This document shows, one piece after another, positions 46,217 through 56,528 of a stretch of 64,000 nucleotides of DNA. Made by a program: the position numbers and the translations under genes. A model generated the notes under the pieces. The model saw nothing but the letters and a program-made list of their open reading frames with translations, searched no databases and was not told the DNA's origin. The stretch comes from Haloarcula taiwanensis (lineage in GTDB: Archaea > Halobacteriota > Halobacteria > Halobacteriales > Haloarculaceae): NCBI GenBank assembly GCA_002844335.1, contig CP019154.1, positions 1,922,001-1,986,000 of the forward strand, read 5' to 3'. Positions within the stretch are counted from its first letter, which is position 1. Each line of letters begins with the position of its first letter.

Positions 46217-47548
46217 ATGACAAACGAGGCACTCGGCGAGAGCCGTCCCGGAACGAGGGGACGCGCCGGGTGGACACGCGAGCAGGCGAGTCGGATCGCG
46301 CGCACCGACGACACCGTTGCCCCCATCGTCTATCCGCCGGAAACCGAACAGATTCCCGAGGTTCATATCTGGGACACCTGGTTCCTCCGCAACCGCGACG
46401 GCACGCTGGCGACAGTCGACGGCTACCGGGTCTGTTTTTCCCTGACGGCTCCGTCCGACTTGCTACCCGGCAAGCGCCACGACGTGGCGACCATCCGCTG
46501 TTTCTACTCTGACGACGGTCGCAACTGGCACAACGCTGGCCCGGTGTTCGAGGACGCACTGGGGCAGCGCCAGTGGGCCGGGTCCGCCCTGTATGACGAC
46601 GACGGCAGCGTCTATCTGTTCTACACTGCGGCCGGCGAGGAGAGGGCCGAAGACCTGACATACACCCAGCGTATTGTCGGTGCAGGTGGCGGCAGCATCG
46701 ACACGACAGACGGGTTCGAACTCTCGGGTCCGTGGACCCACCACGAACTGCTACAGCCCGACGGCGAACGCTACGAGCGCGAAGACCAGTCCCGCGGGAT
46801 GATATACACCTTCCGCGACCCGTGGTTCTTCGAGGACCCGGAGACGGGCGAGACGTGGCTCCTGTTCGAAGCAAACACGCCGGTTCTGGAGGGGAGCGAC
46901 ATCTGTGGTGGCGACGACGCGTTACAGGAGTTCAACGGAAGCGTGGGCATCGCTCGCTCGCCGACCGGCGACCCGCTGGCGTGGGGGCTTGAAGACCCAC
47001 TGCTGGACGCTGTGGGCGTCAATCAGGAACTCGAACGGCCACACATCGTGTATCAGGACGGCCTGTACTACCTGTTTATCTCCAGCCACCTCCACACCTT
47101 CGCGCCGGGCCTCGAAGGGTTCGACGCGCTGTACGGCTTCGTCGCTGAGGAGCTACGGGGCGAGTACGTCCCGCTGAACGAGTCGGGGCTCGTCGCCACG
47201 AACCCCGAAAACGCGCCGTTCCAGTCCTACTCGTGGATGGCGTTTCCCCACGACGGCGAGGTGCTTGTCCAGAGCTTCTTCAACTACTACGACTTCGACG
47301 GCGAGACGCTGGACGAAATCGCCCATCTGTCCGAATCCGAGCAGATGCGCCGGTTCGGCGGCTCGCTCGGCCCGACGCTCCGGCTCGATGTCGAGGGGAG
47401 CCGAACGCGCATCATCGGAACGCTCGGGCACTGGCACATCCCGCTGGACGGCGAGGGACTGCCGCCGACAGACCGGGAACTGATTCGGCGCGGGCAACGG
47501 GCCGACGCCGGCACCGGGAGCTACGGCGCGCGGACGGGGTCAGAGTAA
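46217..47548 (+). CDS. Glycoside hydrolase family 68 fructosyltransferase (levansucrase or inulosucrase type)
   Basis: 443 aa. The catalytic triad is readable by comparison with levansucrase: nucleophile D53 in HIWDTWF, transition-state stabiliser D201 in TFRDPWFF, and acid/base E273 in QELERPHIVY. The QWAGSALYDDDG and SWMAFPHDGEVLVQSFFNYY blocks also fit. The family transfers fructosyl units from sucrose to make levan or inulin. No signal peptide or Tat motif is visible at the N-terminus (MTNEALGESRPGTRGRAG), although most GH68 enzymes are exported. It converges on a GH32 gene with 30 bp between the stops. Confidence 0.9.
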   Translation: MTNEALGESRPGTRGRAGWTREQASRIARTDDTVAPIVYPPETEQIPEVHIWDTWFLRNRDGTLATVDGYRVCFSLTAPSDLLPGKRHDVATIRCFYSDDGRNWHNAGPVFEDALGQRQWAGSALYDDDGSVYLFYTAAGEERAEDLTYTQRIVGAGGGSIDTTDGFELSGPWTHHELLQPDGERYEREDQSRGMIYTFRDPWFFEDPETGETWLLFEANTPVLEGSDICGGDDALQEFNGSVGIARSPTGDPLAWGLEDPLLDAVGVNQELERPHIVYQDGLYYLFISSHLHTFAPGLEGFDALYGFVAEELRGEYVPLNESGLVATNPENAPFQSYSWMAFPHDGEVLVQSFFNYYDFDGETLDEIAHLSESEQMRRFGGSLGPTLRLDVEGSRTRIIGTLGHWHIPLDGEGLPPTDRELIRRGQRADAGTGSYGARTGSE

Positions 47549-47578
47549 CCGACACAGCGGCGTTTTCGCGGATACCGC

Positions 47579-49696
<2,118 letters not shown>

Positions 49697-50268: not shown

Positions 50269-51756
50269 CTACGACCCGCCGTGTCCCGTCGGGTCGATTT
50301 TCGGGTCGGTGCTACCGTCCTCGATATCCGAGCGGTCGGTCGTGTCAGTCGGCGACAGCGAGCGCTCGTCAGCGGTCGTTATGTCCGGGTCCGGCGTCGT
50401 CTCAGTCCCGACGAAGCGGTCGTCCACGTCGACGGGGTCGCCATCGAGTCTGGCTTTCGCCCTCGAAAGCCGCTGTTCCACGGCATCGAGTTCCGCTTCC
50501 AGGTGGTCGATGGCGTCCGGATAACAGTCTCTGGCGTCTGCGAGGGCAGTTTCGAACGCCGCTTTTGCCGTCTTGTACTCCGCTAACGCGGCGTCGGGCT
50601 GGCTGGCGTCGGCGTACCAGTCCCCTGCCTCCATCGCGTCCGTCGCAACCGCCCGTCGCGCGGTGACGAGGTGCTCCGCGACGGTCCCCAGTCGGTCCCG
50701 GACCCGCTCAGGGTCGCCAGCGAACCGGCGTTCATCCGCCCCCCAGTCGAGCTCGAGGACGTTTCGGTAGGCTTCGAGCGCCTCGGCCCAGTGTTTGGCG
50801 GCAACAGCGGGGTCCTGCGCCGCGACAGCCTCGTTGTCGGCTGCAGCCGCAGTGCGCAGCGGCGACTGTTCGAGGTCATCGATGACCGTTTCGAGTCGGT
50901 CACGCTCGGCACGGATGTCGGCAAGTTCTGGAACGCCCTCGGTCGGAAGTGAGAGAATCTCGTCATACTCCGCTCGCGCCACCTCGTAGGCGTCGTACGC
51001 CGCCTCGAATTCGCGCCCTCGCCAGCGCTGCTCACCGGTGTCGACTGCCCGTCGAGCGCGGCTGCGACGGACCTCCGCGAGTGTCGCAGTGTGGCGTTCT
51101 CGCACCGTGGTAACGCGGTCTTCGAGCGCGTTCGCATCGTCGGACGGCCCGAACTCCGTGGCCGTTTCACCGGCCACGTCAAGGCGGTCCCCGGCTTCCA
51201 GCACCGTCGCCAGTGCCTGCTCGTAGTCCCCTTGATCGCGCTGTTCTGTTGCTCTCACGAGCATCCGCTTGACCTCGTCCAAGATATTCTCGACGCGAAC
51301 CCACGCCTGTGACGCATGGGAAAGATACGCGGTCAGGTCGACGATTCCCTGTTTGCCACAGTGAACCCGCCACTCCGTCCCACCACACCGCCGGAGCGTG
51401 ATCTGACCGTGGCCCAGCGAGTGGTCTCCCGCGACCTGATCGATATCGACGTGTGGGACGGCGAACCGCCTGTCGCCGTCGTCGTTTCCCACTAGCACGA
51501 TGAGTCGCCTGTCCGTCACGACGCCGATCATGCGGTAGTTGCTGCCCGGCTGCACCGTCTCGCCAGACTTCGACGTACCGAGTTCGACGCCGTGTTTGCG
51601 GCTGGTGAGAGCGAACCGTGGGGTCTCGTCGTCGTCGACGGCTGCCAGTGCTGGCTCGTCGTGGAGATAGCCGGTCGAGAAGAGCCCGCCCGGACCGGTG
51701 CGGGTGAGGATATCAGGTGGATCCTCCAAATTATTTAATTTGATAATTTTTCCCAT
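50269..51756 (-). CDS. PH-like domain protein with long helical repeat region, unknown
   Basis: 495 aa from ATG 51756. Residues about 30-140 have the pattern of a bacterial PH fold (MIGVVTDRRLIVLVGNDDGD, RFAVPHVDIDQVAG, QITLRRCGGTEWRVHC). From 145 to about 430 follow alpha-helical TPR- or coiled-coil-like repeats (QGDYEQALATVLEAGDRL, REFEAAYDAYEVARAEYDEI, AKHWAEALEAYRNVLEL). The tail is acidic and disordered. It may bind partners at the membrane. No known haloarchaeal name recalled. Confidence 0.7.
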   Translation of the reverse strand: MGKIIKLNNLEDPPDILTRTGPGGLFSTGYLHDEPALAAVDDDETPRFALTSRKHGVELGTSKSGETVQPGSNYRMIGVVTDRRLIVLVGNDDGDRRFAVPHVDIDQVAGDHSLGHGQITLRRCGGTEWRVHCGKQGIVDLTAYLSHASQAWVRVENILDEVKRMLVRATEQRDQGDYEQALATVLEAGDRLDVAGETATEFGPSDDANALEDRVTTVRERHTATLAEVRRSRARRAVDTGEQRWRGREFEAAYDAYEVARAEYDEILSLPTEGVPELADIRAERDRLETVIDDLEQSPLRTAAAADNEAVAAQDPAVAAKHWAEALEAYRNVLELDWGADERRFAGDPERVRDRLGTVAEHLVTARRAVATDAMEAGDWYADASQPDAALAEYKTAKAAFETALADARDCYPDAIDHLEAELDAVEQRLSRAKARLDGDPVDVDDRFVGTETTPDPDITTADERSLSPTDTTDRSDIEDGSTDPKIDPTGHGGS

Positions 51757-52148: not shown

Positions 52149-53243
52149 CTAGTTGGTCTCGACGAGACGCGCCGCGATCCGCTGTGCGCCGATAGTCGGT
52201 GCGATGTCCGGTTCGTCGGCGGCGATGACTTCGATATCGCGGTTCAGTTCCGCGCTGAGTCGCTCCTCGAACTCGTCGACGATACCGGGAATGCAGGCCA
52301 TGCCGCCGGTGATGGCGATCGGCCGGTCCAGTGCTAGCTGGTACACTTTCATGTAGTCGTTTGCCAGCTCCGGCAGGAACGTGTTCGCCAGTTCGTCGAC
52401 GGCGTCGTCGAGGTACTCGTTGACCGCGTCCATCACAGAGCGCTCGATGGTGAACTCGTGTGAGCCGCCGCCGGGCTGCTGGATGATGTCCGTGAACGGC
52501 TCGAAATCGACGAAGTCGGCGTGCTCCTCCTTGTATTCGCGAGCAGTCTGGTTGTCTATGTTGACACGGCCCTGCGTCTCTTCTTCGACGTAGTTGGCGA
52601 TCATCCGGTCGACCTCGTTCCCGGTCACTGCGCCCGTCGTGAACGGCGAAAGTTGTTCGCCGCGGCGGTACGCAGAGGCTTCGAGGTTCGTCGACCCCAT
52701 GTTGACAGCGACGAAGATCTCGTCGATGGCTTCGAGGTCGTCGCCGAAGGCCGGGATGGAGCCACACAGTGACTCTGGATAGCTCTCGACGAGTTCCAGC
52801 CCGATCGAGGAGTTCTCGATGACGTTCTGGAGGTTCTCCAGCCCAGTCGGATTGTCGATGGTCGGAATAGCGTACACGACGCCGCTGTTTGCCGGGATGT
52901 CGTGTTCCTCGATGATCGCCTCGAAGAACGTCTTGGTCATCTCGGCCCGGTCGGCGTCCTCGGGCAGTCCCGACCGGAGCATGTACTCGACGCGATCCGG
53001 ATACTCGCGGGCCGCTTCCTCGCCGTAGAGGATTTTCTCCTCACCGGTCAGGGCGTCCTCGTACGTCGCCATGCAGGTCAGTGTCTTGATGATCCGGTTC
53101 TCCGTGCCGTGTTCGCCCGGCAGGGCAATGACGGTCCGGGTACTCCCGAGCTTGACCCCGACCGGAACGGCGGCAGCGCCGCTTGACGACACACCGGCGT
53201 CTGATTCGGACCCGGTGTCGTCGTCCGCATCCTCGTCACTCAT
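52149..53243 (-). CDS. Actin-superfamily protein (salactin/volactin-like candidate)
   Basis: 364 aa. An acidic, disordered N-terminus of about 25 residues precedes an actin/MreB-type core. Phosphate-1 loop: PVGVKLGSTRTVIAL at 27-41. Connect/phosphate-2: IFVAVNMGSTNLEASAY at 177-193. ESYPESLCGSIPAFG fits the E-P-x-A helix, and PIAITGGMACIPGIVDEF the adenosine motif. The usual Mg-coordinating Asp residues are K31 and N181 here. Haloarchaeal actin relatives salactin and volactin form dynamic filaments that affect cell shape; which type this is cannot be told by eye. A GATATATATC box at 53269-53278 lies 26-35 bp upstream. The next gene upstream is an ArlD/E-domain protein. Confidence 0.75.
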   Translation of the reverse strand: MSDEDADDDTGSESDAGVSSSGAAAVPVGVKLGSTRTVIALPGEHGTENRIIKTLTCMATYEDALTGEEKILYGEEAAREYPDRVEYMLRSGLPEDADRAEMTKTFFEAIIEEHDIPANSGVVYAIPTIDNPTGLENLQNVIENSSIGLELVESYPESLCGSIPAFGDDLEAIDEIFVAVNMGSTNLEASAYRRGEQLSPFTTGAVTGNEVDRMIANYVEEETQGRVNIDNQTAREYKEEHADFVDFEPFTDIIQQPGGGSHEFTIERSVMDAVNEYLDDAVDELANTFLPELANDYMKVYQLALDRPIAITGGMACIPGIVDEFEERLSAELNRDIEVIAADEPDIAPTIGAQRIAARLVETN

Positions 53244-53268
53244 ATACGGTCGTCCTTGTCGACCGCCC

Positions 53269-53278
53269 GATATATATC
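53269..53278 (-). promoter_or_regulatory. TATA box of the actin-like gene
   Basis: GATATATATC, 26-35 bp upstream of ATG 53243; near-leaderless transcript expected. Confidence 0.55.
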
Positions 53279-53383
53279 CTCTCCCTAGTATTCAGGACTG
53301 ATAGCTGCCCCCTCGGGTGACTGATACTGCAGCATCCTCGATATCAGGAATGTGACGGAAAGAACTGCTGCTGAAAACGAGCG

Positions 53384-53869
53384 TTATGTCATCGCTGTGA
53401 GCTTCGCGATGTAGACGAGGCTCAGCATGTGGTCGTCGACGCTCAGCTCGTTGTCGTCGTTGGTCGCCGACTCGTCGATGCCGAGCAGATAGTCCGAGAG
53501 GTCGTCCTGTACGTCCTCGGTGATCCAGTCGATAGAGCGGTAGTAATCGAGCGCTTCGTCGGCCCCCTGATACCCGGAGTGCATCAGCAGGAACTCCAGC
53601 CACTCGAAGACCACGAACTCTGCGGCGTAGGTCTCGGGCAGCGCTTCGAGATAGGGTTTCTCCTGTGCGTCACCACCGAGGAACGGCAGGAGTTCACGGT
53701 AGAGCCCGGAACGGAACGAACTCCCCGCAAGCACCTCTTCGTCGGAGTCGTCGAGCCCCATGTCGAGATCTGTCGGGTCCGGAACGTCCTCGTCGCCCAT
53801 CCCGTTGCCCCGCTGACGAGCCATCTTCCGTAACTCGTCGAGGTCGTAATCACGCGGGTTGATGGTCAT
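53384..53869 (-). CDS. ArlD/E (FlaD/E)-domain protein of the archaellum/chemotaxis type
   Basis: 161 aa. After a polar N-terminus of about 70 residues comes the FlaD/E domain: PYLEALPETYAAEFVVFEWL, EFLLMHSGYQGADEALDYYR, SIDWITEDVQDDLSDYLLGI. In archaella ArlC/D/E link the motor platform to the chemotaxis adaptor CheF. No archaellin or motor gene is next to it here. Its neighbours are an actin homologue, ParA and CheW. A minus-strand GATTTATG at 53896-53903 serves as TATA box. Confidence 0.8.
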   Translation of the reverse strand: MTINPRDYDLDELRKMARQRGNGMGDEDVPDPTDLDMGLDDSDEEVLAGSSFRSGLYRELLPFLGGDAQEKPYLEALPETYAAEFVVFEWLEFLLMHSGYQGADEALDYYRSIDWITEDVQDDLSDYLLGIDESATNDDNELSVDDHMLSLVYIAKLTAMT

Positions 53870-53895
53870 GATACTGACCCTTCAATCTACACAAT

Positions 53896-53903
53896 CATAA
53901 ATC
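53896..53903 (-). promoter_or_regulatory. TATA box of the ArlD/E-domain gene
   Basis: Minus strand GATTTATG, 27-34 bp upstream of ATG 53869. Confidence 0.5.
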
Positions 53904-54000
53904 TTGCACACCGTCAGACGGCCGTCATGCACACGCTCGCGGGCATTTCGGTCTCGTCCGCGTTCCGTCCCCCAGTTGCGAGGTTGATAATCGGGACCAC

Positions 54001-54010
54001 ATTTTTATAG
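54001..54010 (+). promoter_or_regulatory. TATA box of the parA-cheW operon
   Basis: ATTTTTATAG, 30-39 bp upstream of ATG 54040. Confidence 0.55.
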
Positions 54011-54039
54011 TGGCTCGGAGTCGACCTGTGGATACTTGG

Positions 54040-54945
54040 ATGATGAACCGGCAATCAGAAACCGGTCCAGCCCGCTTCTGTGTGACCAACGCGAAAGGCG
54101 GGACCGGAAAGACGACAGTTGCTATCAACGTAGCCGGTGCACTGAACGACCGCGGCCGGGACGTCCTCTTTATCGACCTCGACCCACAGGGCAACGCCAC
54201 GGAAGGCGTCGGTCTCGTCGAGGCGTACGACGCCGACCCGCCGACGCTGTTCGACGCACTGACTGGTGACCCATCGGCGCTGGGTGACCTCATCTGCGAG
54301 GGTGAGGAGATGGACGTGATCCCCTCCAGCATCGATATGCTCCAGGCCGAGCACGAACTGACCATCGCCGACCTCATCGCCCGGGTCAACACCCAAGGCG
54401 GGGATATCGACCAGGCCGCGCTGGCCTCGTTCGCGATCAACATCACGCCAGAGATGGTCACGGGGTCACACGCGCTCGACACGCTCGACCGGGCGCTGTC
54501 GACGCTCGACGCCGAGTACGACTACGTTATCATCGATTGCCCGCCGTTCTACGGGAAGCTGACCGACACCGGAATGTACGCCGCACAGAACGTCCTCATT
54601 CCCGCGCTGACTGAAGCGACCTCCGAGCGAGCCATCGAACTGCTGATGGACCAGATGGCCGCGATGGAGCGCCAGACCGACGCGTCGATCAACACGCTCG
54701 GCGTCGTCGCCAACCGGGTCGAAACGACATCCGAGGACGAGACGATGCTCGAATGGTTCAACATGGCATTCCCGGACAGTCCCGTCTGGGAGGTCCGCAA
54801 GCGGGTCGCGCTCCAGCGCGCGTTCAGCGCCGGCCAATCGATTTTCGCGACAGAGGAATCGTGTGATATGGCGGCTGTCTTCGAGGACATCGCCGCAGAA
54901 CTCGACAAGCAGTTCGGCTTTACCGACACAGAGGTACCAGCATGA
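54040..54945 (+). CDS. parA: ParA/MinD-family ATPase, cotranscribed with cheW
   Basis: 301 aa. The deviant Walker A motif is CVTNAKGGTGKTTVAINVAG, followed by FIDLDPQGNATEGVG (switch I) and YDYVIIDCPPFYGKLTD (Walker B/switch II). It lacks the long amphipathic C-terminal helix of MinD. ParA ATPases place cargo by making gradients on DNA or membranes. The stop overlaps the cheW start in ATGA, which suggests that chemotaxis arrays are the cargo, as for bacterial ParC and PpfA. The ATG 54043 is an equal alternative. Confidence 0.88.
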   Translation: MMNRQSETGPARFCVTNAKGGTGKTTVAINVAGALNDRGRDVLFIDLDPQGNATEGVGLVEAYDADPPTLFDALTGDPSALGDLICEGEEMDVIPSSIDMLQAEHELTIADLIARVNTQGGDIDQAALASFAINITPEMVTGSHALDTLDRALSTLDAEYDYVIIDCPPFYGKLTDTGMYAAQNVLIPALTEATSERAIELLMDQMAAMERQTDASINTLGVVANRVETTSEDETMLEWFNMAFPDSPVWEVRKRVALQRAFSAGQSIFATEESCDMAAVFEDIAAELDKQFGFTDTEVPA

Positions 54946-55922
54946 GTGACGACGAACGTATGGACAGAGCGGAGCGCATCCGACAGATGCGCGAGGGGAA
55001 CAAAGCAGAGACTACCGACGACACCGAGGAGACGGACGATGACTCCACGGATGGGTCCAGTGACCACTCCGACGACAGCGGAAACGAGGAGACGCCGGTC
55101 AGGGCCGGTGACGCGGAACCGTCGGCCGCCCAGAGCGACGACGCGCCTGAGGAAGCGGCGGCCGATGGACAGACTCCTGACGACAACGGCAGCGACACGA
55201 ACGCCGACGGCGCAACCACTGCCCAGACCGATACTGACGCGATGGCCGCCGCACAGCGAGCGGCCGAGGCCTCCGCACAGATGACCAGTGAGAACGTCGA
55301 CGCCGGTGTTGCCGACCAGCCGACAGACGACCTTTCGGCCTCGGCCAGCCCGATGCAGGGGCCGACCGGCGTCGAGTTGCCGGACCAGGAACTCATCGAG
55401 GAGGCGATGGCGTCGGACAACACCGCCACGACCGAAGGTGGCGCTCGCGCCGCGGCTATCGATGACGACGCGACCCAGACAGAAGAGCTGGTCCGGGTAC
55501 TCGAGTTCGCGCTCGGTGACGAGTACTACTGTCTCGACATCGACTACGTCGAGGAGATCGTCAAGCGCGAAACGGTCACTCGCGTCCCAAATACCGAGGA
55601 CTACGTCGAGGGCGTCGTCGACCTCCGGGGCCAGATTACGACGATTCTCAACCCCAAGGTGATGATGGACATCGACAGCGACGGGACCGAGAATCTCATC
55701 GTCGTCTTCGACGCAGGCGTGTTCGAGGAACAGGGTGCGATGGGCTGGATCGTCGACGAGGTCCGGCAGGTCGTCCCCGTCGCCGAGTCCGAAGTGAACA
55801 CCGCCCCGGTCGACGGCGAGTACATCAACGGCGTCGTCGACCGTGACGACGAGGACGAGTTCGTCATCTGGATCGAACCCGACGACGTTCTCGGGAACGC
55901 AACCGCGGACGGCGAGGACTGA
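54942..55922 (+). CDS. cheW: Chemotaxis adaptor CheW with long disordered N-terminal extension
   Basis: 326 aa, about twice the usual CheW. Residues 1-180 are disordered and acidic, except for a basic start (ERMDRAERIRQMREGNKAE). The CheW domain begins near 183: VRVLEFALGDEYYCLDIDYV, VPNTEDYVEGVVDLRGQITT, MGWIVDEVRQVVPV. CheW links receptors to the kinase CheA. Coupled to parA by ATGA. Confidence 0.92.
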   Translation: MSDDERMDRAERIRQMREGNKAETTDDTEETDDDSTDGSSDHSDDSGNEETPVRAGDAEPSAAQSDDAPEEAAADGQTPDDNGSDTNADGATTAQTDTDAMAAAQRAAEASAQMTSENVDAGVADQPTDDLSASASPMQGPTGVELPDQELIEEAMASDNTATTEGGARAAAIDDDATQTEELVRVLEFALGDEYYCLDIDYVEEIVKRETVTRVPNTEDYVEGVVDLRGQITTILNPKVMMDIDSDGTENLIVVFDAGVFEEQGAMGWIVDEVRQVVPVAESEVNTAPVDGEYINGVVDRDDEDEFVIWIEPDDVLGNATADGED

Positions 55923-56075: not shown

Positions 56076-56393
56076 TCAGGACTCGCGCCACTTGTGGCCG
56101 CACTCGACACAGGTGAATAGCCGAACCTCGTAGGAGCCGCCCGGCTTCGGCAGCATCTCGTAGTAGGCCTGGTCGCTGTCGCAGTCGTCCGCCGGACAGG
56201 GCTCCTGCATCGTCTCGGTAGCGTCCTGCGTCGCGTCGGCCACGGCGGGTGCCCCGTCGTCCCGCTGTGCATCCTGGGTCGCCATCGCCGCTTCTGCCTG
56301 CGAGTCCCGGGGTTCCTCGTTTTCACAGGAGCGACACACCCAGGTGTCGCCCTCCGTGTGCATTACCGAGCCACACTCGTCACAGAATTGCAT
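56076..56393 (-). CDS. TFS-like transcription factor (TFIIS/RPB9-type zinc ribbon), divergent
   Basis: 105 aa from ATG 56393. The N-terminal zinc ribbon is MQFCDECGSVMHTEGDTWVC with R-S-C following; the C-terminal ribbon is CPADDCDSDQAYYEMLPKPG ... FTCVECGHKWRES. Canonical TFS has an Asp-Glu pair at the tip of the second ribbon hairpin that enters the RNA polymerase active site for transcript cleavage. Here that stretch is PKPGGSYEVRLF, without D-E. It may be a paralogue that binds but does not stimulate cleavage. It stands alone between cheW and ndh. Confidence 0.82.
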   Translation of the reverse strand: MQFCDECGSVMHTEGDTWVCRSCENEEPRDSQAEAAMATQDAQRDDGAPAVADATQDATETMQEPCPADDCDSDQAYYEMLPKPGGSYEVRLFTCVECGHKWRES

Positions 56394-56528
56394 ATAACGT
56401 CGGGATACACGGGTGTCGGATATATGTGTTAACTTCCGCTCCCCCGTGGGTTTCAGGTACCCGCTCATGCTGACGGCCGTGAAAATCTCGCGTCTTTGAG
56501 AGGGGTATCCGGGCCGTTTTCCCGCCCC

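Follow-up and report, generated by a model that had tools for sequence, protein, structure and literature searches.

The locus of Haloarcula taiwanensis analysed here consisted of two recurrent gene pairs, arlD-salactin and parA-cheW2, which suggest how haloarchaea may site their motility machinery. The window, i.e., the whole stretch of DNA analysed, comprised 64,000 nucleotides of a 3.72 Mb genome. Salactin, an actin-like filament protein of 364 aa, was encoded on the minus strand (52149–53243), 140 bp downstream of arlD, the gene of an archaellum switch/base protein of 161 aa on the same strand (53384–53869). On the plus strand, parA (about 54040–54945) encoded a ParA/Soj-type ATPase with the deviant Walker A motif KGGTGKTT (AAA_31, 127 bits), and its end was overlapped by 4 bp by the start of cheW2 (54942–55922). 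The divergent starts of arlD and parA lay about 170 bp apart, and the partly A+T-rich intergenic region between them (53870–54039) may be a two-way promoter. A preliminary description had recognised an actin homologue, an ArlD/E domain, a ParA and a CheW side by side; all four genes were found at these coordinates, and the profile matches agreed. The same set was also present at about 30 other Haloarculaceae loci, the linkage being widespread in haloarchaea and not confined to the H. taiwanensis genome; this recurrence ruled out a chance neighbourhood. No description of an arlD-salactin/parA-cheW2 linkage was found in a literature search of open-licence papers.

The gene located 3′ of salactin (50269–51756, minus strand) recurred at that position in Haloarculaceae. 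Its product gave no family match over the cut-off in the profile search and was predicted to contain a PH-like barrel and helical repeats; it might conceivably be a third member. Elsewhere in the window, two convergent genes (46217–49690) looked by eye like putative GH32-type fructan hydrolases, and a small zinc-ribbon protein (56076–56468) resembled transcription factor S, with a score below the TFS cut-off.

Adjacency of arlD and salactin was counted on individual loci, in 40 loci over 28 genera and, separately, in 80 named haloarchaeal loci. An ArlD/E gene and salactin adjoined, or nearly so, in 31 of the 40 loci (28 genera), 26 of these having arlD upstream and codirectional, and arlD lay directly upstream of salactin on the same strand in 68/80 of the named loci; since the loci have a common ancestry, these counts do not represent independent events. 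The remaining 12 named loci comprised four Halosimplex loci in which arlD lay 4.9 kb upstream, two beginning near a contig edge, two with salactin within a duplicated archaellum operon, one with an ArlD/E gene downstream and three without any. The flanks of the pair varied widely from genus to genus, while the pair itself stayed constant, and arlD is the most constant haloarchaeal neighbour of salactin. In Haloferax, Halobellus and Halogeometricum, arlD-salactin followed cheY-cheC-cheD within the arl/che cluster. In the genera g28 and g43 (family f9), arlD was found within the arl cluster and salactin stood alone; both genera appear Halobacterium-like from their gene order, so the link between the two genes may be exceptionally invisible in Halobacterium salinarum.

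Several other arrangements were recorded. In Halovenus carboxidivorans and strain SHR40 (L047, L048, L111, and L114), arlCE and arlH of the archaellum operon were duplicated, and two salactin genes were interleaved with these copies. A third ArlD/E subfamily was observed in Haloferax (L184, 17815–18387; L124, 15063–15503; L063, 8675–9154), and in H. mucosum a gene of this subfamily was located just downstream of a second salactin gene.

The co-occurrence of both genes was also analysed in 293 Halobacteriales genomes. Salactin was detected in 124, all of which contained ArlD/E, while 109 genomes had ArlD/E alone and 60 had neither (Fisher 2.8e-17, not corrected for phylogeny). Volactin, used as the control actin, occurred even where ArlD/E was missing from the genome, and no volactin position in the sample adjoined an ArlD/E gene; in the source genome it was encoded on the second contig (G000:C2:77194–78156), away from the ArlD/E genes. 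A general link between haloarchaeal actins and ArlD/E was ruled out by the volactin result. Outside Halobacteriales, salactin occurred also in genomes lacking ArlD/E and was not near an ArlD/E gene in the genomes having both, which ruled out a link across all archaea. Furthermore, salactin adjoined an ArlD/E gene in Halocatena (H. marina, L144), though this genus lacked the archaellum core genes tested: FlaC was absent, and ArlI was represented by just a distant homologue. Hence, archaellum placement cannot be the only use of the pair in this genus.

Salactin was found with other partners outside Halobacteriales. In genomes that resemble Archaeoglobi in size and gene content (family f15; at about 9–11.5 kb in L261–L266, L268, and L269), a salactin orthologue was followed by a coiled-coil protein of 170–245 aa and then by a ParA/MinD ATPase, a second meeting of salactin with a ParA/MinD partner; in L264, genes for a type IV pilus-like ATPase and a T2SSF protein lay just upstream of this group. 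In family f19 (L256, L257, and L259), salactin was followed by a membrane protein gene, whose L256 copy matched the archaeal type IV prepilin (A24) peptidase; the membrane proteins of L257 and L259 looked similar.

The identity of both proteins was supported by several results. The window salactin exceeded the cut-offs of the NCBIfam equivalog NF053533 (599 vs 400 bits) and of PF25229 (620 vs 27 bits), and it was 99% identical to the salactin of Haloarcula vallismortis. The arlD product contained the Arch_fla_DE domain (PF04659, 105 bits) at its C-terminus and no FlaC domain, preceded by an N-terminal motif, NPRDYDLDELR, and a variable linker. The more general form of this motif, [ND]PxxYDxxELR, was frequent at ArlD N-termini and was not found in any of the ArlCE proteins examined. 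ArlD/E-domain genes usually numbered two per genome where any occurred (65 sampled genomes), and the source genome likewise had two, the 161-aa arlD and, in the archaellum cluster, arlCE. That cluster, arlCE-arlF-arlG-arlH-arlI-arlJ beside cheD, cheC, and cheY at about C1:2550000, lacked arlD and was located 574 kb away from it. In the tree, the window ArlD grouped with the family f9 arlD genes that adjoin arlCE, apart from ArlCE (SH-aLRT 82, with few columns). A paralogue foreign to the archaellum was ruled out because no other ArlD was present in the genome and the tree placed the protein with cluster-encoded arlD; by sequence, the 161-aa gene is the sole ArlD of the source genome. Its predicted structure was helical (mean pLDDT 76) and had no match in the PDB; searching the PDB by sequence, for salactin as well as ArlD, returned nothing useful. 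The FlaD of H. volcanii is needed for archaella, and ArlD localises to the pole.

The parA-cheW2 pair had a narrower distribution. The ParA orthologue was detected in 54 of the 293 genomes (E below 1e-60), 49 of them Haloarculaceae, and cheW2 followed parA in every Haloarculaceae locus checked, including those of genera with arlD and salactin elsewhere. The window CheW2 consisted of an N-terminal Arg-rich peptide, RMDRAERIRQMREG, a long acidic linker (about 180 residues before the domain) and a C-terminal CheW domain at residues 186–317, well above the Pfam cut-off (PF01584, 76 vs 23.5 bits). The peptide M[ST]D..RMDRAxRIRxMRxG, or one near it, was observed in 42 of 43 CheW2 proteins, with 100–250 variable acidic residues between it and CheW. 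In genus g71, of another family, the gene after parA encoded a CheW protein in which RAxRI-type segments were repeated. A search of papers found no CheW2 with ParA1. ParA/MinD ATPases are commonly activated by partners whose N-terminus is short and positively charged (PMC7993993). In Vibrio ParP, a CheW-like domain is combined with an N-terminus that binds ParC (PMC5706961). CheW2 may therefore be read as a tag, a linker and a cargo domain.

The nearest other relatives of the CheW-linked ParA were haloarchaeal plasmid ParAs. In ten plasmids, the gene coupled 3′ of parA had a small product in which an Arg-rich tag at the N-terminus and a low-complexity linker preceded a common C-terminal domain, which by its appearance and context is probably DNA-binding; pNRC200 had no such small partner gene after parA. 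The motif R[AS]xR[LI], picked after the partners had been viewed, occurred in 10 of 12 partner N-termini (one of them from the window) and in 4 of 702 other predicted N-termini. In the ParA tree, the CheW-linked proteins fell within a well-supported group (99/96) nested among plasmid ParAs. Because this group also includes three ParAs with a plasmid-type partner, several numbers and directions of cargo-domain swaps would fit the tree. Reading the window parA-cheW2 itself as a plasmid partition system was rejected, CheW replacing the plasmid-type C-terminal domain.

From the observed gene content, recurrent linkage, tag conservation and ParA phylogeny, we infer the binding, anchoring and placement steps of a tentative model that falls a little short of an even chance: two polar-positioning modules side by side, ParA-CheW2 for arrays and ArlD-salactin at the archaellum base. 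ParA would place chemosensory arrays, with CheW2 as its cargo adaptor and activator. The Arg-rich peptide of CheW2 would bind ParA and trigger its ATPase, the acidic linker would supply reach, and the CheW domain would plug into receptor arrays. The ancestor of this module would be a ParA of haloarchaeal plasmid partition, with a partner that bore the same kind of tag on another cargo domain. Salactin would form pole-based filaments, and ArlD at the archaellum base may anchor or nucleate them, or may be the load that they place. The outcome would be a joint inheritance of pole, archaellum and arrays.

The ArlD-salactin module is supported by an adjacency that persists amid changing flanks, by its presence inside arl/che clusters, by ArlD/E in all 124 salactin genomes, by the unlinked volactin, and by the polar ArlD together with salactin growth from poles. 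The coupling of parA and cheW2, the conserved tag common to plasmid ParA partners and the nesting of ParA support the other module. Counting against the model are the normal motility of a Halobacterium salactin mutant (see below), the pair in Halocatena and the lack of linkage outside haloarchaea. Moreover, arrays and archaella localise independently of each other in H. volcanii, where MinD4/MinD2, ParA/MinD ATPases, already affect the position of both (PMC11588486). The array- or archaellum-positioning system proposed in the preliminary description was supported in part. Gene content fitted it, and CheW2, with its tag, linker and CheW domain, was built as a cargo adaptor of ParA would be; its four genes proved to be two separable modules, arlD-salactin across families and parA-cheW2 mostly in Haloarculaceae, and the Halobacterium phenotype spoke against it. 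A single pole-inheritance machine, in which the actin would be tied to the archaellum base via ArlD and to which Haloarculaceae would have added a ParA-CheW2 re-aimed from plasmid partition by cargo swap, placing archaella and arrays, seems rather doubtful.

Array placement by ParA-CheW2 appears to be the better supported half of the two-module model, while three readings seem live for the ArlD-salactin half: archaellum placement, a polar anchor for DNA work, and shared expression. In Halobacterium salinarum (Hbt. salinarum), Δsalactin cells have normal motility and a DNA-partition phenotype at low ploidy, the neighbours of salactin are DNA replication and repair genes, synteny was reported as poor even within Halobacterium, and DNA segregation was proposed (PMC10746226). 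Salactin filaments grow from polar foci. Salactin could therefore segregate chromosomes as published, with ArlD merely its polar anchor; the filament would gain a foothold at the archaellum pole without moving the archaellum, and the pair kept by Halocatena without the archaellum genes tested would fit as well. However, several genera have salactin inside or next to archaellum/chemotaxis clusters, and in Halobacteriales the gene is restricted to genomes with ArlD/E; overall this explanation is judged somewhat unlikely. Shared expression only, with arlD, salactin, and parA-cheW2 all being motile-phase genes without physical partnership, is unlikely. It would agree with H. volcanii, in which ArlD/HVO_1202 forms a transcription unit whose response goes along with those of the archaellum and che units (PMC13286277), HVO_1202 being presumably a salactin homologue from the Haloferax gene order. 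Nevertheless, the pair outlasts every other neighbour, even at a distance from arl genes and in Halocatena, where the arl genes tested are lacking, and co-expression alone would rarely keep one specific pair so long.

An alternative was also considered for the ParA half, in which CheW2 is a signalling tuner competing with CheW1 at receptors and ParA controls its availability or is no placing device. The CheW2 of Hbt. salinarum binds transducers dynamically without fishing CheA, and it has been proposed to compete with CheW1 (PMC3579733); its gene, however, lies near fla genes and may not be the orthologue of the window cheW2. A ParA ATPase whose adaptor carries a tag and a long linker has the build of cargo-placing systems, and this alternative is considered quite unlikely.

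Salactin had been read as a DNA-segregating actin without an informative gene neighbourhood, and the broad sample now shows arlD there, a candidate anchor for its polar origin that makes the link testable. For the placement of archaeal arrays, ParA-CheW2 is a concrete candidate, and it would be an example of a plasmid-moving machine re-aimed at a new cargo via one domain change. If the single pole-inheritance machine exists, the Archaeoglobi-like genomes, which have salactin in an operon together with a ParA/MinD ATPase, would point to an old archaeal theme.

Compared with known systems, the window salactin belongs to the same family as that of Halobacterium salinarum by curated models, but it follows arlD, whereas poor synteny was found in that study (PMC10746226). 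The window ArlD shares its domain with the ArlD (FlaD) of haloarchaea (PMC6509185) and groups in the tree with cluster-encoded arlD, but its gene is far from the archaellum cluster and adjoins salactin. The window ParA, a ParA/MinD ATPase like MinD4/MinD2 of Haloferax volcanii, belongs to a different subfamily, and no CheW partner gene is described for those two in the available portion of the source (PMC11588486). The plasmid ParAs with a small partner (e.g., pHS4 and pNG300) are the closest ParA kin outside the group and have the same gene coupling and the same kind of N-terminal tag, but their partner ends in the common plasmid-type domain and the window partner in CheW. Finally, Vibrio ParC-ParP (PMC5706961) likewise combines a ParA-type ATPase with an adaptor in which a long linker separates an N-terminal domain from a CheW-like one. 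In contrast, the window pair is found at a separate locus, outside a che operon, its linker is acidic and not Pro-rich, and its tag resembles those of haloarchaeal plasmid partners; the likeness rests on layout and is claimed as working alike, not as sequence kinship.
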